64,000 nucleotides of DNA. Origin: Microbacterium murale. Lineage in GTDB: Bacteria; Actinomycetota; Actinomycetes; Actinomycetales; Microbacteriaceae. The translations under genes were made by a program, and so were the position numbers. The DNA lies in assembly GCF_014635185.1 (NCBI RefSeq), contig NZ_BMCM01000005.1:1-64000 (forward strand), given 5' to 3'. Positions 2,053 to 13,945 of this stretch are shown here, piece by piece. Every line of letters begins with the position of its first letter. Positions within the stretch are counted from its first letter, which is position 1. The notes under the pieces are model-generated. The model was not told the origin of the DNA and searched no databases. It was given only the letters and a program-made list of their open reading frames with translations.

Positions 2053-3011
2053 ACACCGCTGGTCGCCTGGGCGCGTACGCCGCAGGTCTTGTGGCGGTAT
2101 TCGCTGCGGCCTTCGCCGTCGGTGGCGCCGTCGTCCCTGACAGCACCGTCGCGGCCTGGACGGAAGCCAGCTCCTCCGAGCATGGCGAGCATAAGGCCGA
2201 GGACACCACCACTGCCATGAAGGCTGAGGAAGTGAGCGTGAGTGGCGTGTCGATTGCGGCGTCGGAATTACGTCTCGGGTCGGTGCGGGCACCGTCTGAG
2301 AGCGGTGTCGAAGGGGAACTGGCTTTCGAGATTCTCAATGTCGCCGGGAACCCCGTCACCGAGTACGAAACTGCGCACGGCAAACAGCTTCACCTGATCA
2401 TCGTGCGCAGCGATGGGAGCGAGTACCGGCACGTGCATCCGGTCCTTGACGTCGCCACCGGCACCTGGGCGCTGCCCTGGCAGTGGAAGTCTGCTGGCAC
2501 ATATCGCGTCTACGCAGACTTCACCGCGCTCGGCGGCGCGAGCGCCACCCTCACACGCACGGTCGATGTTGCCGGCACTGTCACTCCGGCACCGCCGACA
2601 GAGATCAAGACGCACGACACGGCCGACGGATTCGATGTGAGCATCACGGGAGAACTCACCGCCGGCACGGGCAGCGATCTGACGCTCGAGATCACCCGAG
2701 ACGGCGAGCCTGTGACCCAGTTGCAGCCCTACCTTGGCGCGTTCGGACACTTGGTCGCACTCCGCGAGGGCGACCTGGCCTACCTCCACGTTCACGCGCA
2801 CGGTGAGGAGCCCGAGGAGGGGGATGTGGCCGGTCCCACCGTGGTGTTCACAGCTGAAGTTCCCACTGCTGGCCGTTACCTGTTGTACCTGGACTTCCAG
2901 GTTGCTGGGGAAGTCCACGCCGCCAGCTTCGTCCTCGACGCGGGAGCATCGCCTGTCTCGACCTCGGAGGATGAATCGGACACGAGCGACGACGACCACG
3001 GCGGCCACTGA
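2049..3011 (+). CDS. Exported or membrane-anchored His-rich protein of the copper operon
   Basis: The product has 320 residues. An N-terminal hydrophobic helix (about residues 8-30, [19 protein letters not shown]) acts as signal peptide or anchor, so the rest should lie outside the membrane. Two beta-rich repeats follow, each ending in a histidine cluster: [10 protein letters not shown] near residue 125 and [11 protein letters not shown] near residue 240. The C-terminus is acidic and ends DDDHGGH. These are likely copper ligands. I recognise it only as a protein recurring in actinobacterial copper clusters; its exact role, such as extracytoplasmic copper buffering, is inferred. The start overlaps the copZ stop, so the two are translationally coupled. 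Confidence 0.7.
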
Positions 3012-3063
3012 ACGCCGATACGCATCAGCCTTACTTGAACGAACAGTGATTGAGGAGAACATC

Positions 3064-5391
3064 ATGACGGATACGCAGTCCGCGGCCGACGTCGCCAGCG
3101 TGGAGCTGGAAATCGGTGGCATGACGTGCGCATCGTGCGCGATGCGGATCGAGAAGAAACTCAACAAGCTCGACGGTGTCACGGCAACGGTGAACTATGC
3201 CACTGAAAAGGCCAAGGTCACCGTTCCCGCAGGCATCGACACGGCGCTGTTGATCTCGGAAGTCGAGAAGACCGGCTACACGGCTGCCCTCCCCGCCCCG
3301 GATGAGCCCTCGCGCAACGAAGACGCCGACGCGCCGGATGCGGAACTCGTGAGCCTGCGCAACCGCCTGATCGCGTCAGTGGTGCTGACGATCCCGGTCA
3401 TCGCGATGGCGATGGTCCCTGCGCTGCAGTTCACGTATTGGCAGTGGCTGTCGCTCGCTCTGGCGGGTCCGGTCATCGTGTGGGCGGCATGGCCGTTCCA
3501 CAAGGCGGCGTGGACGAACCTCCGCCACGGCGCGGCGACCATGGACACGCTCATCTCGATGGGCACTCTCGCTGCACTGCTGTGGTCGCTGTATGCGCTG
3601 TTCTTCGGGACGGCCGGTGCTCCTGGGATGACGCACCCGTTCGAGCTCACCGTTGCTCCCAGCGATGGTGCCGCGAACATCTACCTCGAAGTCGGGGCCG
3701 CGGTGACGATGTTTATCCTCGCCGGCCGGTATTTCGAGAAGCGTGCCAAGCGTCAGGCCGGGGCCGCGATGCGCGCCCTGCTGGAGCTGGGAGCGAAGGA
3801 TGTCGCCGTGCTCCGCGGCGGCGTGGAGACGCGTATCCCTACCGCCGAGCTGGCCGTGGGCGACGAGTTCGTCGTCCGCCCCGGTGAGAAGATCGCGACG
3901 GACGGAGTCATCGTTTCGGGGACATCGGCGGTGGACGCGTCGATGCTCACCGGCGAGTCCGTGCCGGTCGAAGTCCGCGAAGGCGACTCGGTCACCGGTG
4001 CGACGGTGAACGCCGGAGGTCGGCTCGTGATCCGCGCGACCAGGATCGGATCAGACACACAGCTCGCGCAAATGGCGAAGCTCGTCGAGGACGCGCAGAC
4101 CGGGAAAGCGGAAGTGCAGCGCCTCGCGGACCGGATATCCGGGATCTTCGTCCCCATCGTCATCGCGATCGCACTAGGAACACTCGGCGTGTGGCTCGGT
4201 GCCGGATTCCCCGCCGCTGCTGCTTTCACGGCCGCTGTCGCCGTCCTGATCATCGCCTGCCCGTGCGCGCTCGGACTGGCAACGCCGACCGCCCTTCTGG
4301 TGGGCACCGGCCGCGGCGCCCAGCTGGGCATCCTCATCAAGGGCCCGGAAATCCTCGAGTCCACCCGCAGGGTCGACACAGTCGTTCTGGACAAGACCGG
4401 CACTGTGACCACCGGCAAGATGACCCTCACCGACGTGTACACGGCCGACAACGTCGCCCGTAATGACGTGCTGCGTCTCGCTGGGGCGCTCGAAGATGCG
4501 TCCGAGCACCCCATTGCTCAGGCCATCGCCAGGGCCGCGACCCAAGAACTCGGCACCCTCCCCATCGTGGAGAACTTCGTGAACATCGAAGGCAAGGGGG
4601 TCCAGGGCATCGTCGACGGACACGCAGTGCTCGTCGGTCGCCAGTCACTGCTCGCCGACTGGTCACAGCACCTTCCCCCACGCCTCGCCACGGCCAAAGC
4701 CGATGCGGAGCGACAGGGCAAGACCGCGATCGCGGTCGGCTGGGACGGCCACGCCCGCGGTGTGCTCGTCGTCGCCGACACCGTCAAGGCCACCAGCGCG
4801 GAAGCCATCACACAGCTGAAGCGTCTGGGCCTGACCCCTGTGCTGCTCACCGGCGACAACCAGGCCGTGGCCGAACAGATCGCGGCGGAGGTCGGCATCA
4901 CCGAGGTCATCGCGGAAGTCCTCCCCAAAGACAAGGTCGACGTAATCACCCGCCTCCAGGGAGAAGGAAAGGTCGTGGCGATGGTCGGCGACGGCGTCAA
5001 CGACGCTGCTGCCCTCGCTCAAGCCGACCTAGGTCTCGCGATGGGTACCGGCACTGACGTCGCCATCGAAGCCAGCGACATCACCCTCGTCCGCGGTGAC
5101 CTGCGCAGCGCCGCCGACGCGATCCGACTCTCGCGAAAGACGCTCGGCACCATCAAGGGCAACCTGTTCTGGGCGTTCGCATACAACGTCGCGGCGATCC
5201 CGCTCGCTGCGCTCGGGCTGCTCAACCCCATGCTCGCCGGCGCGGCGATGGCGTTCTCCAGCGTCTTCGTCGTCGGCAACAGCCTCCGCCTGCGCTCATT
5301 CCGCAGCCAGGCGGCGGACCCCTCTCCGGCAGGCGCCCGTGCACCGCGTGAAGACGCGACAGCTGCGGTTCCCGTCGGAACACACCACTGA
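3064..5391 (+). CDS. copA: Cu(I)-exporting P1B-type ATPase
   Basis: The 775-residue integral membrane pump exports Cu(I) using ATP. In order it has an N-terminal HMA domain with GMTCASC at 19-25, membrane helices from about residue 100, the actuator motif TGES at 296-299, the CPC copper-transfer motif at 399-401 in the sixth helix, the phosphorylation site DKTGT at 443-447, SEHP at 480-483 and GDGVND at 642-647. All catalytic residues are present. ATG 3064 follows TTGAGGAGAAC. A longer in-frame extension upstream lies antisense-like within the preceding gene and has no family similarity. CPC plus HMA marks the P1B-1 (copper/silver) class. It receives copper from CopZ. Confidence 0.95.
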
Positions 5392-5410
5392 AATCGAAAG
5401 AGGAAACACT

Positions 5411-5671
5411 ATGTCTGACACCTCCGCTGGCTCCTGCTGCAGCCACAACAGTCACGCCCATGTCGACGCCGAAGGACGCAAGGATCTCCTCGCCTCGCAG
5501 GCGGAAGATCTCGCCGAATGCCCCGTCATGACCGGAAGCACCGTGGTCAAGGCAGATGCCGAAGCCGCCGGCCTGTTCCGCGACTTCGAGGGCACCCGCT
5601 ACTACTTCTGCTGCGCAGCATGCGGGCCCTTGTTCGACGCCGACCCGGCAAAGTACGCGGCCGCAGCCTAA
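5411..5671 (+). CDS. YHS-domain metal-binding protein
   Basis: This is a small cytoplasmic protein of 86 residues. The N-terminus carries CCSHNSHAH, a Cys/His patch. The remainder is a YHS domain with CPVM near residue 37 and the hallmark YYFCCAACGPLF followed by DPAKY. YHS domains are small treble-clef-like metal-binding modules often fused to or adjacent to heavy-metal ATPases, where they may sense or hand over metal. ATG 5411 is preceded by AAGAGGAAAC. It sits between the two ATPase genes and is probably co-transcribed with them. A role as metallochaperone for CopB is a reasonable guess only. Confidence 0.85.
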   Translation: MSDTSAGSCCSHNSHAHVDAEGRKDLLASQAEDLAECPVMTGSTVVKADAEAAGLFRDFEGTRYYFCCAACGPLFDADPAKYAAAA

Positions 5672-5745
5672 ACCGCACCCTCCGTGTGAGGCTCGCCACG
5701 ATGCGGGCCTCACACGGTTTCACCATTCCCGAGGAGGATAGGTCC

Positions 5746-7965
5746 ATGAGCGACTCGCACAACGATGACGTTGAACACACCACCGCGCATCACGATCACC
5801 ACGGCCACGCATCTCACGAAACCGGCCCCAGCGACGCCCCGCAGCATCAGCATCATGCGGACCACGCCACGACGGCGACGCACGACCGGCACGAGCCCTC
5901 GATAAACGGGACCGGCCACGACGAACATGCGCAGCACACCGGGCATATGGACGCCGGCGGTCACGGCGGCCATGCTGGTCACGGCGATCACGTGGGGCAG
6001 TTCCGCCGACTGTTCTGGATCATGCTGATCCTCGCGGTACCCACCGTGGCACTGTCAGGAATGTTTGCGATGATCCTCGGATACACCCTCCCGGATATTC
6101 CCGCTCTCGCCTGGATCTCCCCGGTCCTGGGGACCGTCATGTACGTATGGGGTGGCCGACCATTCCTCGTCGGCGCCGTCAGCGAGATCCGCGCCCGCAA
6201 GCCCGGCATGATGCTCCTCATCGGGCTGGCGATCACCGTCGCGTTCTTCGCCTCCTGGGGTGCGAGCCTCGGCCTGATCCACCACGAGCTCGACTTCTGG
6301 TGGGAGCTGGCGCTGCTGATCGTCATCATGCTCCTCGGCCACTGGATCGAGATGCGCTCACTCGCCCAGACCACCTCCGCGCTGGACTCGCTAGCGGCGC
6401 TGTTGCCCGATGAGGCCGAACGCATCGAAAACGGTCAGGTCGTCTCCGTCTCACCCGCCGACCTCGTCGTCGGCGACCTCGTCGTCATTCGTCCCGGTGG
6501 CAGCATCCCCGCTGACGGGCGGATCGTCGATGGCAGGGCATCCATGGATGAGGCCATGGTCACCGGTGAATCGGCCACCGTCACCCGCTCTGCCGGCGAC
6601 CTGGTCACCGCGGGTACCGTCGCCACGGACTCCGGGCTTCGCATCGAGATCACCGCGACGGGAGACGACACCACTCTCGCCGGCATCCAACGCCTGGTCA
6701 CCGAGGCGCAGAGTTCATCGTCCCGGGCGCAACGGCTCGCGGACACAGCCGCGGGATGGCTGTTCTGGTTCGCCCTCGGAGCAGCCGCAATCACAGCCCT
6801 CGTGTGGACCGTGCTCGGCTTCCCCGACGCCGCCGTCGTGCGCACGATCACCGTTCTCGTGATCGCCTGCCCCCACGCGTTGGGTCTAGCCATCCCGCTC
6901 GTCGTTTCCATCGCCACCGAGCGGGCCGCGCGCGGCGGTGTGCTCGTCAAGGATCGGCTCGCACTGGAGAGCATGCGCACCGTTGACACCGTGCTCTTCG
7001 ACAAGACCGGGACGCTCACCAGAGGCGAGCCCGTCGTGAGTGAGGTCTCGGTACCCGACGGCGGCGACCGTGATCAGGTTCTCGCCCTCGCGGCCGCCGC
7101 GGAGGCGGACAGCGAACACCCCCTCGCCAAAGCCATCGTCCGCGCGGCCGCCGACAAGAACCTCACCGTACCCGCGAGCCGCGACTTCACCTCCTCACCG
7201 GCCGTTGGCGTCACCGCGACCGTAAACGAGACGACGGTTCGGGTGGGCGGACCGCACCTGCTCACGGAGGAGAACGCGGGCGAGCTGACTGTGGCGGACA
7301 GCTGGCGGCAGGACGGCGCCATCATCCTGCACGTCGTGCAGGATGGGCAAGTGATCGGTGCTCTGAAACTCGCCGATGAAGTGCGATCCGAGTCCCGTGA
7401 AGCCGTCGACGCACTCCACGCGCTCGGCGTGCAAGTCGTCATGATCACCGGAGACGCCGAAGCCGTCGCGCACACCGTGGCTCAAGACCTCGGGATCGAC
7501 CGGTTCTTCGCGGGAGTTCGTCCCGAGGACAAGGCCGCCAAGGTCCAGGAGCTGCAGAAGGAAGGCCGCAAGGTCGCGATGGTCGGCGACGGGGTGAACG
7601 ACGCCCCCGCGCTCGCACAGGCCGATGTCGGACTGGCTATCGGAGCCGGTACCGATGTCGCGATCGCATCCGCGGGCGTCATCCTCGCCAGCGACGACCC
7701 CCGCTCCGTCCTCTCCGTCATCGAACTCTCGCGTGCCGCGTACCGGAAGATGAAGCAGAACCTGTGGTGGGCCGCCGGCTACAACCTCATTTCGGTACCG
7801 CTCGCGGCAGGGGTGCTCGCGCCGATCGGGTTCGTCCTGCCGATGTCCGTCGGAGCAATCCTCATGTCGCTGTCAACCATCGTCGTCGCACTCAACGCAC
7901 AACTGCTGCGCCGACTCGACCTCCGACCCGACACCACCACCCGGATAGTCCTCGACAAGCACTGA
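5746..7965 (+). CDS. copB: Second copper-exporting P1B-type ATPase, CPH type with His-rich N-terminus
   Basis: The 739-residue membrane pump begins with a long metal-binding tail containing 22 histidines in the first 82 residues instead of an HMA domain. Core motifs follow: TGES at about 273, CPH at 375-377 in place of CPC, DKTGT from D419, SEHP at about 455 and GDGVND in the P-domain. A CPH motif with a His-rich N-terminus defines the CopB (P1B-3) class, associated with Cu(II) or Cu(I)/Ag(I) export. The ATG at 5746 was chosen for its GAGGAGG ribosome site. With CopA this gives the operon two pumps of different specificity. Confidence 0.92.
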   Translation: MSDSHNDDVEHTTAHHDHHGHASHETGPSDAPQHQHHADHATTATHDRHEPSINGTGHDEHAQHTGHMDAGGHGGHAGHGDHVGQFRRLFWIMLILAVPTVALSGMFAMILGYTLPDIPALAWISPVLGTVMYVWGGRPFLVGAVSEIRARKPGMMLLIGLAITVAFFASWGASLGLIHHELDFWWELALLIVIMLLGHWIEMRSLAQTTSALDSLAALLPDEAERIENGQVVSVSPADLVVGDLVVIRPGGSIPADGRIVDGRASMDEAMVTGESATVTRSAGDLVTAGTVATDSGLRIEITATGDDTTLAGIQRLVTEAQSSSSRAQRLADTAAGWLFWFALGAAAITALVWTVLGFPDAAVVRTITVLVIACPHALGLAIPLVVSIATERAARGGVLVKDRLALESMRTVDTVLFDKTGTLTRGEPVVSEVSVPDGGDRDQVLALAAAAEADSEHPLAKAIVRAAADKNLTVPASRDFTSSPAVGVTATVNETTVRVGGPHLLTEENAGELTVADSWRQDGAIILHVVQDGQVIGALKLADEVRSESREAVDALHALGVQVVMITGDAEAVAHTVAQDLGIDRFFAGVRPEDKAAKVQELQKEGRKVAMVGDGVNDAPALAQADVGLAIGAGTDVAIASAGVILASDDPRSVLSVIELSRAAYRKMKQNLWWAAGYNLISVPLAAGVLAPIGFVLPMSVGAILMSLSTIVVALNAQLLRRLDLRPDTTTRIVLDKH

Positions 7966-7979
7966 CACCAGGAGCACCC

Positions 7980-8297
7980 ATGACCGATACCGCTGAGCAG
8001 GCGACGTCCTGCGAACACGCAAACCACGGCTACATCACCGACAAATCCCGCTACCTCGCCCGCCTCAAACGCATCGAAGGACAAGCACGCGGCGTGCACC
8101 GAATGGTCGAGGACGAGAAGTACTGCATCGACATCCTCACCCAGATCTCTGCCCTTACCAGCGCCCTGCAGAGCGTCGCCGTCGGACTCCTCGAAGACCA
8201 CCTCCGCCACTGCGTTACAGACGCCGCCCGAACCGACGCAGACATCGAAGGCAAAATCCGCGAAGCCTCACAAGCCATCGCGCGACTCGTTCGCTGA
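7980..8297 (+). CDS. csoR: Copper-sensing transcriptional repressor
   Basis: The 105-residue protein belongs to the CsoR/RcnR (DUF156) all-helical family. The metal ligands are visible as Cys49, His74 and Cys78, with the exact C-x24-H-x3-C spacing of copper-type CsoR. RLKRIEGQARGVHRMV is the conserved first-helix signature. Apo-CsoR binds GC-rich palindromes, and Cu(I) releases it; two matching operators lie ahead of copZ. The start ATG 7980 follows CCAGGAGCACC. An N-terminal extension CEHANHG adds extra Cys/His. It is the last gene of the copper operon, 14 bp after copB. Confidence 0.93.
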   Translation: MTDTAEQATSCEHANHGYITDKSRYLARLKRIEGQARGVHRMVEDEKYCIDILTQISALTSALQSVAVGLLEDHLRHCVTDAARTDADIEGKIREASQAIARLVR

Positions 8298-8682
8298 TGT
8301 ATCTGTGATAGTCGTTGGCGCCGCTTCTGGATGCTCGAGCTGTCCATGCTCGCCGCCTGGGCCCTCGGCCTCCTCGGCGTCGTGCAAGTCCTCGGGCGGC
8401 TCCTGCACGTCCCCATCCCGCACACCGCCGCGCCCTGGATCCCTTTCGCGGCCACGGCCCTCATCGCTGTTGCTCTGGCCGCGCTCTCGCTCGTCTGCGC
8501 ACGGTTCTCAAGTCGGCGTTGCAACCTACTCCGGATGGTAGGCATCAGATCGTTTTCTCTACGACTGGTGGGAAGACACCTCATCGAACTACGCAGTTCA
8601 GTTTGCGCAACGATACTTGCCCAAGCTGCGCCGCACCATGCGTACCAGCGTGCTTCATGGGGACCTGCATAGCATCGGTCCC
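8298..8682. other. Intergenic stretch with a decayed membrane-protein fragment
   Basis: About 385 bp separate csoR from the next clear gene. A plus-strand frame from 8331 to about 8520 encodes two hydrophobic helices (LELSMLAAWALGLLGVVQVL and WIPFAATALIAVALAALSLV), then loses character in a GC-shifted tail. There is no good ribosome site and no start upstream, so I read it as a remnant of a membrane protein rather than a gene. A composition change near 8510-8560 marks the passage from the copper segment to the lower-GC defence-like segment. TAGCAT at 8670-8675, 7 nt before ATG 8683, is a possible -10 for a leaderless transcript. Confidence 0.4.
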
Positions 8683-9441
8683 ATGCGGGCCCCTGTTCCT
8701 GAGCTTGAGCGTTCCCGTGTGCCAGGCGCTGGCGGACGCATCAACTGGGACACGCAACACGCGGTCTATTGCAGCAACCTCACTTCAAAAGACGTTTCAG
8801 ATCTTCACACAGTCTTTCTCGACGAACCGCGCTACGGGGGCTATATCGACGTCTCCTATACCAGCCCAGTTCGCGACTACGTTGCCAGCACGCTGGTCAG
8901 CCAGATGCTCCTCAGCGACGGAATCGCGCTCGTCGGCCACGGCGTCGAAGAACCTGTCATCGGCAGCGAAGATCCAATGAGGTTCGGTTTCCGTGACCAC
9001 GGGCTCCGTCTCGTAAGCCTGATGGACGACTACTTCGACACGTTCCTGTCGTACAAGGTCGAAATCGGGCACACCGCGGGCGCCGAGATGGACCGTACGC
9101 TGAACCTTGCTGCTATTACTGGCACCATCGTCGACGTCGAGAGTTGTCCGATCGTGGTCCCCGCGTTGAAACTCGACGGATACTTACTCAAGAAGGACGA
9201 CCGGCTACGCCTTATGACTCGTATCGGCCTCCAGGACGTTACCCCTGACGAACTCGCCGGGGTCATTCGCGAGAAGCTGCTGCAGAGGTACATTTACGAT
9301 CTGAAGTACGCCGAAGAGGGAACGCCAACGTTTGCCGTCACGGCTGAGTTTGCATCTGCAGATGGCACGCCGACACGACGGCTGATTGCTCTGAAGTACG
9401 ACGCGAACGAACGCGCGATCAGCCTCGTCTCGGTGCACTAG
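8683..9441 (+). CDS. Unrecognised protein paired with the nuclease-NACHT gene
   Basis: I do not recognise this family. From ATG 8683 the product is 252 residues, soluble, with no membrane helix, signal peptide or obvious catalytic motif. It is mixed alpha/beta with a central hydrophobic segment (TLVSQMLLSDGIALVGHGVE) and a lysine-rich part (GYLLKKDDRLRLMTRI). Frame extensions to ATG 8638 or TTG 8617 are possible, but 8683 has a -10-like TAGCAT 7 nt upstream, as in other leaderless genes here. Codon use is less GC-biased than in the core genes. It lies 71 bp before, and on the same strand as, the Mrr-NACHT gene, suggesting a two-gene unit; it could be a regulator, sensor or antidote (speculation). 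Confidence 0.6.
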   Translation: MRAPVPELERSRVPGAGGRINWDTQHAVYCSNLTSKDVSDLHTVFLDEPRYGGYIDVSYTSPVRDYVASTLVSQMLLSDGIALVGHGVEEPVIGSEDPMRFGFRDHGLRLVSLMDDYFDTFLSYKVEIGHTAGAEMDRTLNLAAITGTIVDVESCPIVVPALKLDGYLLKKDDRLRLMTRIGLQDVTPDELAGVIREKLLQRYIYDLKYAEEGTPTFAVTAEFASADGTPTRRLIALKYDANERAISLVSVH

Positions 9442-9512
9442 TAATAGACCACCCCGAGCTACCGCGCTCAGCGCTGATCGGGAGTGTCCCTTCTATCCGC
9501 CAAGATGTCCCT

Positions 9513-12305
9513 ATGGACTATGACCTTGCCCGACTTGGCCCGACTGAGTTCGAACACATGGTGCAAGCACTCGCCATAGCGGAGCTCGGCATACGGGTGT
9601 CAACGTTCGGAGCCGGACGCGACGGTGGCCGAGAAGCAACGTTCTCAGGGGCTGTCAGTACCCCAGACGAGTCCAGTTACAGGCAGTGGGATGGCTACGG
9701 GATTGTCCAAGCGAAGACGATACGTTTCGAAGGAACAACTTCAACCAACGCGACCTCAATCGCATCCGCCGTCACCTCGGAACTGGATCGGTTCATAGCG
9801 ACCAACGGGTCGGACCCTGAGCGAGACCCCGCCCCGCAGTACTACATCATTGCCACCAATGTGCGGCTCACGCCCTTCCCCGGAAGCGGCGGGTTAGACC
9901 AGGTCGAGAAGGTCCTTCGCGAACACCCAGTACGTCTCGCGGGCTTCGCTGTCTGGCACTACGAGCACATCTGCCGGCTACTGGACCGGCACACCGGCAT
10001 ACGGCGAACCTTTGCGGGCTTCATCACGCCCGGCGACGTCCTAACTCGACTCATCGAAGTACTCGAGGGGAGCGCGGTCGAGCTCGGCCCTATTCTGCGT
10101 GGACATGCTGCCGCACAGGTCATGGCACGACAAGAACTCAAGCTAGACACGGGCGAGATCACTGATGTCGCCAAGGTTCAGCTAAGCGACGTAGCAATCG
10201 ACCTACCGGCCAAGGGCCGATATGGATCAGAGGTTCAGACGATCCAGCGAATCCTGCAGTGCGGCGATCATTCGCTTCGCGCCTCTCATAAGCCTGAGGA
10301 TCCTTACGGGTTTGTCGTCATAGGCGGGCCCGGCCAAGGAAAGAGCACCTTGGGACAGATTGTCGCGCAGTCATATCGAGTCGCCCTTCTCCAGGACGAG
10401 ACGGTCTCTATCTCGCCTCGCATCGACGCGGCCATTGCAGACACGCGGCGCCGCATCAGCGATATGGGACTCGCGCAACCTCGAAACCGGCGCTGGCCAG
10501 TAACTATCGATATCGCCTCGTTCGCAGACGCCATCTCCGAGAACGGAGACCTTACGATCGTGGAGTACATCGCGAGGCAGCTTCGCAATCAGGCGGCGTC
10601 AGTCACTGCCGGACAGCTGGTGTCTTGGCTCGCGGCGTGGCCATGGGTCCTGATCTTCGACGGTCTCGACGAGGTCCCGGCGCCTGCAAGCCGTAGTGCA
10701 GTCGTTCAAGCTCTGAACGATCTCATCATCGAATCAAGAGTGGGCAACTGGGACGTGCTTATCGTCGCCACAACCCGGCCCCAGGGATATGAGAACGAGT
10801 TCGACGAACTGCGCCCCGAACGACTCGAGCTTCGCTCGCTCACCCCCAGCGAAGGATTCGAATACGGGCGACAGATCATTGCCACCAAGTTCACCACCGA
10901 CCCAGAACGTATCTCTGCACTAACTGACAAATTGCGAGAAGCAAGCGTTCAAAACCATGCTGCGAAGCTCATGACGACACCACTTCAGGTGTCCATCATG
11001 GAGTTCCTCGTTGAGGAGCTCTTCGAGGTCCCCCGCACCCGTCACGAACTCTTCGACGGCTACTACAAGGCGATTTACTCACGAGAGAGCAGAAAAGCCG
11101 GCCGCTTGGGCAGGGTCCTACGCACCCACGAGGAACAGGTGGCGTGGGTACACGAACGCGTCGCGGTGGGCCTCCAAGCACAATTAGAGCATTCGGGCGA
11201 AACCGTTGCGTCGTTGCCTGACGCGGAAGTCAGGCAGCTCATCGCTGAGCGGCTCAAAGCGCAGCAGTACGACGCGGGAGAGGTGGATCGACTCTCTGAC
11301 GAATTGGAGAAGGCCACAAAGCAGCGGCTAGTGCTCCTCATCCCGAAGGGCGAGGATCGCGTCGAATTCGAGGTGCGGAGCCTGCAGGAGTACATGGCGG
11401 CCCGGTGGCTCGTCAAGGGCGACGCGCATACCGTCTTCGATCGTCTTTCCAACCTCGCACCCTCGGCGTATTGGCGAAACACCTGGTTACTCGCCGCAGG
11501 ACGTTTCTATGGCTCGCGTGATCATGAACGCGACGCGTTCATTGAGCGGCTACGACAGCTCGACAGCGACTCACTGATCGGCGGCTTCCTCGGGTTCGGT
11601 GCACAACTCTCCGTCGAGTTGCTCGACGATAACTTTGCATCGAGCGTTCCCGCACACCGGAGATCGCTCCTCGCGCTGGCCATGACGCAGTCGACCAGAT
11701 GGCCCGGACCTGACCTCAAGAAGTTGGCGCGGTTAGCACGAGATGCCGTCAATAGCGGTGACCAGGTCTCTGAAAACATCGTGCTCGACGCACTCGCCGA
11801 CGGCCTCGACTCAACTGGAAGATCGCATCTCAGCGCCGTCTCAATACTTCAGCATTGGAAATCAGATCGGAACGAATCCGGGCGTTTCGCCCGCAGCAAG
11901 CTTGAGAACATTGATCTAGCGTCCCGGCCAAAGTCTGCGCCGGTACGTCAAATCACCATCGGAGCCCTGCTCGACGAGTATCACCAGCCCGCTGGAGCGG
12001 CATCGAAGGATCAAAATGGGTGGAAGCGGGCGCGCGAAGTGCTCGACGAGATTGCTGTACCTGATCACAGCCTTCTGTTAGAGGCTGTCGCGTTCGGCAA
12101 TGCCGAACTTGAGATTAAAGCCGTGAGGCACGCTTCCCTCGAGGATCCAGCGGCGCAAGAAGCCCTCGTCCGCACTGCGAACAAAGTGCCAATCAGTCGA
12201 GCCGCCGCGCCCATCTTGTTGCGACGTCTTCTGCTCGCCACGATGCAATCGACACCGAGAGGACACTTCCTCGGCGCAACCGCGTTCGGGGACATCAGCG
12301 GCTGA
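9513..12305 (+). CDS. Mrr-like nuclease-NACHT ATPase fusion, candidate anti-phage effector
   Basis: 930 residues. The N-terminus resembles a PDDEXK restriction endonuclease of the Mrr type: TEFEHMVQALA at 11-21, GRDGGREATF with Asp37, and GIVQAKT with Gln66-x-Lys68, which gives the D...QxK active site. A NACHT/STAND NTPase follows, with Walker A GGPGQGKST at 271-279, Walker B LIFDGLDEV at 380-388 and ATTRPQGY at about 419-426. The remaining ~450 residues are predicted helical and HEAT-like, a likely sensor region. Nuclease-NACHT and nuclease-STAND proteins (bNACHT, Avs types) act as phage sensors that degrade DNA on activation. Rare Leu codon TTA occurs several times and GC is lower than in flanking genes, indicating horizontal gain. 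CAAGAT lies 6 nt before ATG 9513. Confidence 0.8.
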   Translation: MDYDLARLGPTEFEHMVQALAIAELGIRVSTFGAGRDGGREATFSGAVSTPDESSYRQWDGYGIVQAKTIRFEGTTSTNATSIASAVTSELDRFIATNGSDPERDPAPQYYIIATNVRLTPFPGSGGLDQVEKVLREHPVRLAGFAVWHYEHICRLLDRHTGIRRTFAGFITPGDVLTRLIEVLEGSAVELGPILRGHAAAQVMARQELKLDTGEITDVAKVQLSDVAIDLPAKGRYGSEVQTIQRILQCGDHSLRASHKPEDPYGFVVIGGPGQGKSTLGQIVAQSYRVALLQDETVSISPRIDAAIADTRRRISDMGLAQPRNRRWPVTIDIASFADAISENGDLTIVEYIARQLRNQAASVTAGQLVSWLAAWPWVLIFDGLDEVPAPASRSAVVQALNDLIIESRVGNWDVLIVATTRPQGYENEFDELRPERLELRSLTPSEGFEYGRQIIATKFTTDPERISALTDKLREASVQNHAAKLMTTPLQVSIMEFLVEELFEVPRTRHELFDGYYKAIYSRESRKAGRLGRVLRTHEEQVAWVHERVAVGLQAQLEHSGETVASLPDAEVRQLIAERLKAQQYDAGEVDRLSDELEKATKQRLVLLIPKGEDRVEFEVRSLQEYMAARWLVKGDAHTVFDRLSNLAPSAYWRNTWLLAAGRFYGSRDHERDAFIERLRQLDSDSLIGGFLGFGAQLSVELLDDNFASSVPAHRRSLLALAMTQSTRWPGPDLKKLARLARDAVNSGDQVSENIVLDALADGLDSTGRSHLSAVSILQHWKSDRNESGRFARSKLENIDLASRPKSAPVRQITIGALLDEYHQPAGAASKDQNGWKRAREVLDEIAVPDHSLLLEAVAFGNAELEIKAVRHASLEDPAAQEALVRTANKVPISRAAAPILLRRLLLATMQSTPRGHFLGATAFGDISG

Positions 12306-12551
12306 TGCAGCGCTGCGGTCGCGCTCGTTTCGCAGGCCGTGGGGACTGATGCATGCCCTTATGCCGACACTCCCGCACTGGTCCAAGAACGCCAGTACGG
12401 TCCAACCTGATGATCAGATCGCCAGCCCGTTCGATTGCGGACGAAACGAGCCTGAGGCAGGGCCACGAAGAGACCATGACTAGCGACCTCCGGCATCCGG
12501 TCGAGGTCTCCGCGATGACTGGATAGTGTCCAGACGTACACAAAGGACTGC
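12306..12551. other. Terminal segment of the island up to the comM junction
   Basis: About 245 bp with no convincing gene on either strand. Frames here encode Arg/Ser-rich shadow peptides only. The comM-derived sequence on the minus strand ends at about 12551. Next to it a small inverted repeat CTGGA(12519-12523)...TCCAG(12529-12533) encloses CACTA when read on the minus strand. I could not identify a known transposon terminus, integrase gene or target duplication, and the other end of the island is outside the window. Confidence 0.5.
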
Positions 12552-13586
12552 AAGCTGGAATCGTGCGGGGAACCGGGCACGGAAGCCGGCGCGGTCGATC
12601 TCGATGCTCCCTGTCTCCAACGGCTGGCGCAGCGCGTCGAGTGCGACACGTGAGAACTCCGCTGCCTCATCCAGGAACAGGATTCCCCGATGAGCGCGGA
12701 CGATCGCCCCGGGCCTGACCGCCCTCGAACCACCGCCGACGAGCGCTGCCACCGAGGCGCTGTGATGCGGCGCCTCCAGCGGCGGCACGTCGTCGAGAAC
12801 GTCGACGGCTGCGCCGGAAAGCGATCGTATCGACGCGACCTCCAGTGCCGCGTCCTCGGTCAATGGAGGAAGTATCCCCGGCAGCCGACGCGCCAGCATC
12901 GTCTTCCCCGCCCCTGGCGGGCCGCTCATCAGCAGGTGATGTCCACCGGCAGCAGCGACGATCAGGGCCTCGACGGCCTCCTCCTGTCCGACGACATCGA
13001 CGAGATCGAGGATCTCCGGCTCGTGCCGGGGCGCAACAGCGGCAGTCACTGGTTCGACGTCGACAGGTGCGATGTCGGCGCCGTGCCACATCGCCACCTC
13101 CGCGAGCGTGGTCGCGGCGCGCACCTGCATCCCCGGCACGAGTCGCGCCTCCGCCGCGTTCGCATGGGGCACGATCACCTGTTCGAATCCCGCGCGGGCG
13201 GCTGCGAAGACCGCGGGGAGCACGCCAGGCACCGGACGTACCCTGCCGTCGAGGCCCAGCTCGCCGATGTGCACGGTGCGCGCGATCGACCCGGCGTCGA
13301 GCACTCCCCCGGTCGCGACGGCAGAGATCGCGATACCGAGGTCGAATCCGCTGCCGTGCTTGGGCAGGCTCGCCGGCGAGAGATTCACCGTGAGCCTGCG
13401 GCGAGTCAACTCCAGTTGCGCGTTCGTCACGGCGTTGTGCACGCGCTGCGCGGCTTCACCCAGCGCTTTGTCCGGCAGGCCGACGATCTTGAACCCCGGT
13501 GTCTGGTTCGACACGTCCGCCTCGATCTCGACGAGGTGGCCGTCGACACCGGTGAGAGCGACAGCCCACGTGCGAGCCGTCTTCAT
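12480..13586 (-). pseudogene. comM: comM (YifB-type AAA+ Mg-chelatase-like helicase), disrupted after codon ~345
   Basis: ATG at 13586 overlaps the yraN stop. The N-terminal domain (VEIEADVSNQTPGFKIVGLP, residues 20-39) and the AAA+ core with Walker A MSGPPGAGKTML and Walker B GILFLDEAAEF are intact. Similarity runs to FPARFQL at 343-345; homologues continue with a sequence like VLAANPCPCG, but here unrelated residues follow to a stop at 12480. Full-length ComM is about 500 residues, so the sensor and C-terminal domain are lost. ComM is a hexameric branch-migration helicase used in natural transformation. The lost part presumably lies beyond the island, outside the window. comM is a known integration site for genomic islands in other bacteria (AbaR/Tn6022 in Acinetobacter). 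Confidence 0.88.
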
Positions 13587-13945
13587 CGCAGGTCGACCAA
13601 GTGCTCGAGCGTGCCCGTCGCCGGGTCTGCGCCGACGATCCCGATGATCTCGAGGCGCAGCATCCGGTGTCCGGCGAGATCTCGATGCTCAGCGGCCCAC
13701 GCGTATCCCAACCGCCAGAGCCGCAGCCTCTTGCGCTCGTCTATCGCGTCGAAGGGATGGCCGAAGCCTGTGCTGCGCCTGGTCTTGACCTCGACGATGC
13801 CGAGGATGCCGTCGAGCTCGGCGACGATGTCGATCTCGCCCTGGGCGCAGCGCCAATTGCGATCGAGGATGCGATACCCGTGCGCGGCCAGGTGCTGTGC
13901 GGCGCGGTCTTCACCCGCACGTCCGAGGTCGTCTTTCGCTGCCAT
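13583..13945 (-). CDS. yraN: YraN family (UPF0102) endonuclease-like protein
   Basis: The 120-residue protein shows the UPF0102 signature: GRAGEDRAAQHLAAHGY near the start, ILDRNWRCAQGEIDIVA and VEVKTRRSTGFGHPFDAI. The E...D...ExK residues fit a PDDEXK nuclease fold related to Holliday-junction resolvases, though the physiological role is not established. In many bacteria it neighbours comM, rnhB, rplS and lepB, as here. The stop overlaps the comM start (ATGA), indicating coupled translation, so disruption of comM affects only the downstream gene of this pair. Confidence 0.92.
   Translation of the reverse strand: MAAKDDLGRAGEDRAAQHLAAHGYRILDRNWRCAQGEIDIVAELDGILGIVEVKTRRSTGFGHPFDAIDERKRLRLWRLGYAWAAEHRDLAGHRMLRLEIIGIVGADPATGTLEHLVDLR

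Follow-up and report, generated by a model that had tools for sequence, protein, structure and literature searches.

The stretch of DNA analysed here, referred to as the window, comprises the first 64,000 nucleotides of contig NZ_BMCM01000005.1 of Microbacterium murale (assembly GCF_014635185.1; G000:C5:1-64000 in our numbering of genomes and contigs) and so lies at the very start of that contig. It carries two neighbouring open reading frames (ORFs) on the same strand, of 252 and 930 amino acids (aa), which a first-pass annotation had proposed as a two-gene anti-phage module: an unknown protein encoded upstream of a fusion between an Mrr-type nuclease and a NACHT NTPase. Our analysis points to a different arrangement, in which the locus probably holds one lone immune sensor gene of the STAND/NACHT type, with a putative nuclease head, preceded by the relic of another gene (Table 1).

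Table 1 Features of the window, with the evidence for each
Feature	Coordinates	Strand	Evidence
Mrr-like nuclease head, NACHT NTPase and helical C-terminal region in one protein of 930 aa; apparently intact single gene	9513..12305	+	ORF, Pfam, alignment
N-terminal nuclease-like region, residues 1-126	9513..9890	+	D37 at 9621-9623, Q66 at 9708-9710, K68 at 9714-9716
Walker A, residues 271-279 (GGPGQGKST)	10323..10349	+	G271, G274, G276, K277 and T279 invariant
Walker B region, residues 380-388	10650..10676	+	D383, G384, D386, E387 and V388 invariant
Relic of an unnamed family of ~365 aa	8507..9441	+	Lacks its first ~67 codons; frame broken near 8555; 3′ part open
Segment to the left of the relic, matching C3:5240-4711 of the same genome	8319..8509	+	Three collinear pieces, 78-89% identity
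ISL3-family transposase (part), near contig end	76..705	+	Pfam DDE_Tnp_ISL3, E 1.3e-43
Two heavy-metal P-type ATPase genes and a CsoR-like metal repressor	3001..8297	+	Pfam E1-E2_ATPase (twice), HMA, Trns_repr_metal
comM 5′ part, cut (ChlI, Mg_chelatase)	12480..13586	-	Pfam

The gene for the 930-aa protein looks complete, since both of its ends are in line with those of its homologs: the start ATG agrees with the MDYDL- or MDFDL-type starts of several of them, and the final residues align with their C-termini. Pfam places a NACHT domain at residues 342-456, with an E of 7.4e-8 and a score of 32.8 bits that exceeds the cut-off of 26.7. An alignment (A3) was built from the window protein and 16 of 17 homolog ORFs, leaving out L049, which at 740 aa is C-terminally short. 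The putative active-site residues D37, Q66 and K68 and the nucleotide-binding residues G271, G274, G276, K277, T279, D383, D386 and E387 do not vary among the 17 sequences of this alignment, the window protein included. The ORF, its motif residues and both Walker motifs had been read at these same places in the first-pass annotation and are confirmed there.

The upstream ORF is, on the evidence of its alignments, the 3′ remnant of an unrelated gene, 5′-truncated and frame-broken, with no part to play as a partner. As originally read, it runs from 8683 to 9441 (+), and its ATG at 8683 falls inside a region of homology that extends in frame upstream to 8554. A longer, apparently intact copy of the same family is encoded elsewhere in the genome, on contig C3, and 8554-9438 of the window aligns with residues 83-376 of that copy in a single frame (146/295 identities, 49%); a profile search of the window likewise begins at 8554, at model position 70. 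Residues 68-83 of the C3 copy match 8507-8557 in another frame, as a short, weak piece (13/17 identities, E 0.005), and residues 1-67, which hold a conserved TLNAR motif, have no counterpart in the window. To the left of the relic, a second homology, again to contig C3, stops at 8509, where the homology of the relic starts. Two unrelated homologies meeting at one spot are most simply explained by recombination, which makes the spot near 8509 a probable junction. The 252-residue protein is therefore not borne out as a gene. The remark that it belonged to no recognisable family stands insofar as searches of Pfam, PADLOC and NCBIfam leave it unmatched at E ≤1, but a family does exist, if unnamed, and the ORF corresponds to its 3′ part.

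Co-occurrence of the two genes was assessed in both directions. By tblastn, a NACHT relative was found in 0 of 19 loci of the relic family, and a relic-family relative in none of the 26 NACHT loci that lie outside the window (21 loci of 8-20 kb and five of 1.7-3.4 kb). More distant, unaligned NACHT matches in G192, G227, G274 and G160:C14, which are counted outside the 26 loci, lie on short stretches with no relic-family relative. Among the 299 genomes of a family sample the relic family occurs in 2 and the NACHT family in 9, both together only in the window's genome (taken as the same draw), and among the 396 genomes of a phylum sample the relic family occurs in 1 and the NACHT family, searched for with the head profile, in 5, with both once more in the window's genome only.

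Residues 1-126 of the NACHT protein are likely an Mrr-like nuclease of the PD-(D/E)XK type, as suggested by conserved motifs and distant similarity. D37, Q66 and K68 are also invariant in 12 of 12 aligned sequences of a second set, and the Pfam domain Mrr_cat (PF04471) is found at E ≤1 in seven of 12 heads, with a best E of 0.0017. Comparison by hhalign of the head with 11 Mrr-type domains, including that of E. coli Mrr (11 of 17 loci passed the motif filter), gave an E of 6.4e-4 with the FE, DGG and QAK motifs in register. In PADLOC, the window protein is weakly matched over the first 40-45 residues of REase- or TIR-named pAgo-associated models and PDC-S73. Across 17 members of the NACHT family, eight PADLOC families are matched at E ≤0.01, including mad8 in 5/17 (best 2.4e-7) and PDC-S73 in 9/17 (best 1.4e-9). 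A sequence search of the PDB with the head profile (A4) returned no match. A nuclease-like head was also seen in an open frame of merely 321 aa (L066; G403:C27:5641-5985), perhaps a head without a NACHT part, or a frame cut by the contig end.

Beyond the NTPase, an AlphaFold model of the protein is helical at approximately residues 440-750, where confidence is moderate, and falls below a predicted local distance difference test (pLDDT) score of 50 past residue 752. Searching the PDB with profile A3 gave weak P-loop matches alone, the best at 7.5e-4, with NLRC4 among them at 0.0078. PADLOC contains Avs models; the window protein matches none bearing that name at E ≤1, and the eight families found with the 17 members include none either.

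The NACHT family is broadly distributed, with members in Actinomycetota, Pseudomonadota, Bacillota and viral contigs. Within the family sample, three of the matches, the window's own genome being counted among the nine, begin only at about residue 74 or 109. Relatives were found by tblastn in 27 plasmid records, mostly from Rhodococcus and other actinobacteria and also from Variovorax, Priestia and Klebsiella, and several of the lower-ranking plasmid matches start only beyond the head. The closest homolog is a protein of 945 aa with 41% identity to the window protein. As longest ORFs, the 17 homologs fall into two size groups, one of 923-1105 aa (plus one of 740) and one of 1320-1333 aa; the three proteobacterial members measured have 1320-1330 aa, compared with 930 for the window protein. 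Viral contigs carrying a member are L056, L057 and L059, and a collection of phage records gave no match to the NACHT protein and none to the protein of the upstream ORF. Of 5426 E. coli genomes searched by blastn with the Klebsiella member, 3 hold a relative at the DNA level. In the one of these three that was opened, the member (WP_096949132.1; L091:3001-6993, 1330 aa) aligns with 763 columns of the family profile and lies in a P2-like prophage, between the portal and replication endonuclease genes.

Neighbourhoods of the NACHT gene were compared across 22 loci (the window, five genomes, 12 plasmids, three viral contigs and the E. coli prophage), with neighbour clusters counted from three loci upward. 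No neighbouring ORF recurs in at least three of the 22, save antisense ORFs within the gene itself and one cluster resembling an insertion sequence (IS), a reading that rests on one IS3 annotation, and the NACHT protein therefore looks like a single-gene system. It travels unaccompanied, as cargo of plasmids, phages and islands. Some copies were found near known or suspected defence genes, namely Abi and HNH genes, a type I restriction-modification subunit and a Lit-like gene, and further copies sit among metabolic or plasmid genes. Directly behind the closest homolog, with an overlap of 4 bases, lies a helicase-like gene (L025:11879-14422) that matches the PADLOC candidate PDC-S28 at E 1.4e-64. 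According to Rousset et al. (PMC9122126), the interval between gpA and gpQ of P2 is a hotspot of anti-phage genes; the prophage site of the E. coli member corresponds to this hotspot, a context that fits an anti-phage reading of the family.

The family to which the relic belongs is represented on contig C3 of the window's own genome by a copy of 376 aa (G000:C3, L003/L008) and in Galbitalea by one of 359 aa (L002/L030), and longest ORFs of 362-394 aa occur in 14 of 17 other family loci, from Burkholderia, Robbsia, Pseudomonas, Stutzerimonas, Paraburkholderia and others. Three of the 19 loci (L039, L040 and L042) hold two shorter ORFs instead of one, so that the gene may often be lost. These three, along with L033, which is close to L032, were left out of profile A2, built from 10 of 14 loci. 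Members of the family receive no name from Pfam, PHROGs or PADLOC, where single stray matches lie at E 0.03-0.11. Profile positions 148-241 weakly match the anti-CRISPR protein AcrIIA14, and an AcrIIA14-like identity was left unproven: E was 7.8e-4 with profile A1 and 2.2e-3 with A6, A2 gave nothing, and the fold model did not match. Neither of two structure libraries yielded a match to that model (pLDDT 68.7) at E ≤1e-3, and its best PDB hits include chains of the 6cp9 complex at E 0.088.

Defence genes lie beside some members of the relic family. A pair of GajA/GajB-like genes adjoins the family in 4 of 19 loci (L031:1395-5810, L032:9968-14410, L033:9968-14410 and L035:6563-11089; PADLOC was run on L031 and L035 for these Gabija neighbours), in one of which the family gene stands directly behind GajB on the same strand. 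DUF5677 genes are likewise found beside the family in 4 of 19 loci, three of them annotated and one recognised by similarity. Multiubiquitin and ThiF genes lie ~6 kb from the family copy in L006, and the neighbours of the copy in L007 are genes that, going by their DUF names, we take to be Wadjet-like. It is conceivable but unlikely that the family is associated with defence in a way not yet described, perhaps assisting or regulating several defence systems.

Only the 5′ part of comM is present in the window, and the C-terminal domain of comM is encoded on another contig (G000:C3:22743-23024), where a tyrosine recombinase ORF (L022:1-1287, -) directly adjoins the 3′ part of the gene. This recombinase is a candidate for the integrase of an island in comM. 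The metal-transport genes, for which the metal is probably copper, are other cargo of the region. The split comM, the metal-ATPase cargo, the ISL3 transposase and the recombinase together support the earlier placement of the locus in an island in comM, with contigs C5 and C3 unjoined by sequence. The lower guanine-plus-cytosine (GC) content and rare TTA codons already remarked upon were found again: the GC fraction is 0.598 for the NACHT gene and 0.586 for the upstream ORF, compared with 0.664 from position 13600 of the window onward, and the NACHT gene has five TTA codons and the upstream ORF one, with none in five neighbouring genes that were counted. Contig C3 also holds two matches to Mrr_cat (G000:C3:59857-60132 and G000:C3:29175-29492), one of them ~2 kb from the second copy of the upstream ORF's family and the other ~6 kb from the 3′ part of comM.

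Taken together, the conserved motifs, the homologs and the genomic contexts indicate that the NACHT protein is probably an anti-phage sensor. Its C-terminal helical region would recognise some sign of phage infection, and ATP binding by the NACHT domain, going by the family, would let the protein oligomerise. Oligomerisation would bring the N-terminal Mrr-like PD-(D/E)XK domains, with D37, Q66 and K68, together to cut DNA, which would halt the phage, with the cell probably sacrificed. The upstream ORF would play no part in this; it would be what is left of another, unrelated piece of cargo, a gene that lost its 5′ end to recombination at the junction.

Several observations weigh against this reading. 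Residues 1-126 of the window protein score below the Pfam cut-off for Mrr_cat (13.9 bits against 21), and TLP1_add_C scores slightly higher for the same head (16.1 bits), itself under its cut-off; in the Pfam scan the head of one family member matched RIO1 at E 0.0011. The probability assigned by hhalign to the similarity with Mrr domains is just 27.8. AlphaFold was tried as proof of the nuclease fold and failed, with pLDDT of 28-49 per block over residues 1-130 (mean 48.5 for the whole model, computed from a four-sequence alignment), and PADLOC gave no full-length match for the window protein. Conservation is poor in the C-terminal region, a putative sensor of some ligand, and the anti-phage role of the NACHT family is predicted from sequence and context. 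The nuclease-headed NACHT sensor proposed in the first-pass annotation, probably anti-phage, is upheld by motifs, homologs and context, with the nuclease fold of the head likely but unproven.

Among other explanations, the two ORFs might still be read as a functional two-gene anti-phage module with the 252-aa protein as partner: they lie on the same strand, 71 bp apart, and have a similarly low GC content. Against this, some 67 residues with which the family begins are missing from the upstream ORF, its frame is broken, and the two families were found together nowhere but in the window's genome, in either set of loci or either genome sample. The broken ORF and the lack of co-occurrence speak against the module, which we regard as scarcely credible. 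Within the searches made, the two genes do not occur together elsewhere, the outcome that the first-pass annotation itself had named as refuting the proposal, and the pairing with an unknown partner is not supported. One candidate two-gene system is thereby struck off, a probable recombination junction having left an open frame that resembles a partner gene. It is also quite improbable that the NACHT protein is not an immune effector at all, being in decay or serving a mobile element in some other way. The neighbourhood is indeed rearranged and holds a relic, but the 930 codons of the NACHT gene run without a stop, all active-site and Walker residues are kept, and the family is spread over three phyla on mobile elements.

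A further alternative is that the protein is a type IV, modification-dependent restriction enzyme, in which the Mrr head would cut modified incoming DNA and the NACHT NTPase would power or gate the cutting, with no sensing of a phage protein. The head resembles Mrr, which in E. coli is annotated as a methyl-directed type IV enzyme, and the genomic contexts would fit equally well. However, STAND sensors have just such a NACHT domain followed by helices at the C-terminus, with nuclease heads as the effectors, and Pfam finds no modified-base reading domain in the window protein at E ≤1. We consider a type IV enzyme improbable and favour the lone NACHT sensor.

Among known systems, Mrr of E. coli (EcoKMrr) and other Mrr_cat enzymes share the FE, DGG and QAK motifs with the head of the window protein, the similarity being weak (the hhalign value given above). 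Mrr is not known to have an NTPase. Similar in overall design are bNACHT25 and bNACHT32, clade 6 bacterial NLR-related proteins, which, according to PMC12169576, have an N-terminal PD-(D/E)XK DNase whose D48A substitution abolishes defence, and after infection DNA is degraded. Compared by description, they resemble the window protein in combining an N-terminal nuclease of the PD-(D/E)XK type (a putative one in the window protein), a central NACHT domain and a helical C-terminus in one chain. They differ in that the active-site aspartate is residue 48 rather than 37 and in that their NCH1 domain is not among the window protein's Pfam matches at E ≤1, the presence of an NCH1 model in the library being unchecked. 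The accession of the E. coli family member, WP_096949132.1, differs from that of bNACHT25. STAND proteins with an Mrr_cat head are mentioned for the E. coli P4 hotspot in PMC9122126, and their domain order is, by description, that of the window protein. Beyond these two papers, none on this Mrr-NACHT family was recognised among the literature matches listed, from which we claim no absence; the literature search did not extend to the relic family. By analogy, a triggered DNase logic like that of bNACHT25 and bNACHT32 would be the simplest reading of the window protein. The class of nuclease-NACHT sensors is not new, and the window protein looks like a further member of it, standing alone; the Mrr-NACHT family is broad and PADLOC has no full-length model for the window protein, so it is worth naming and assaying within this known class.

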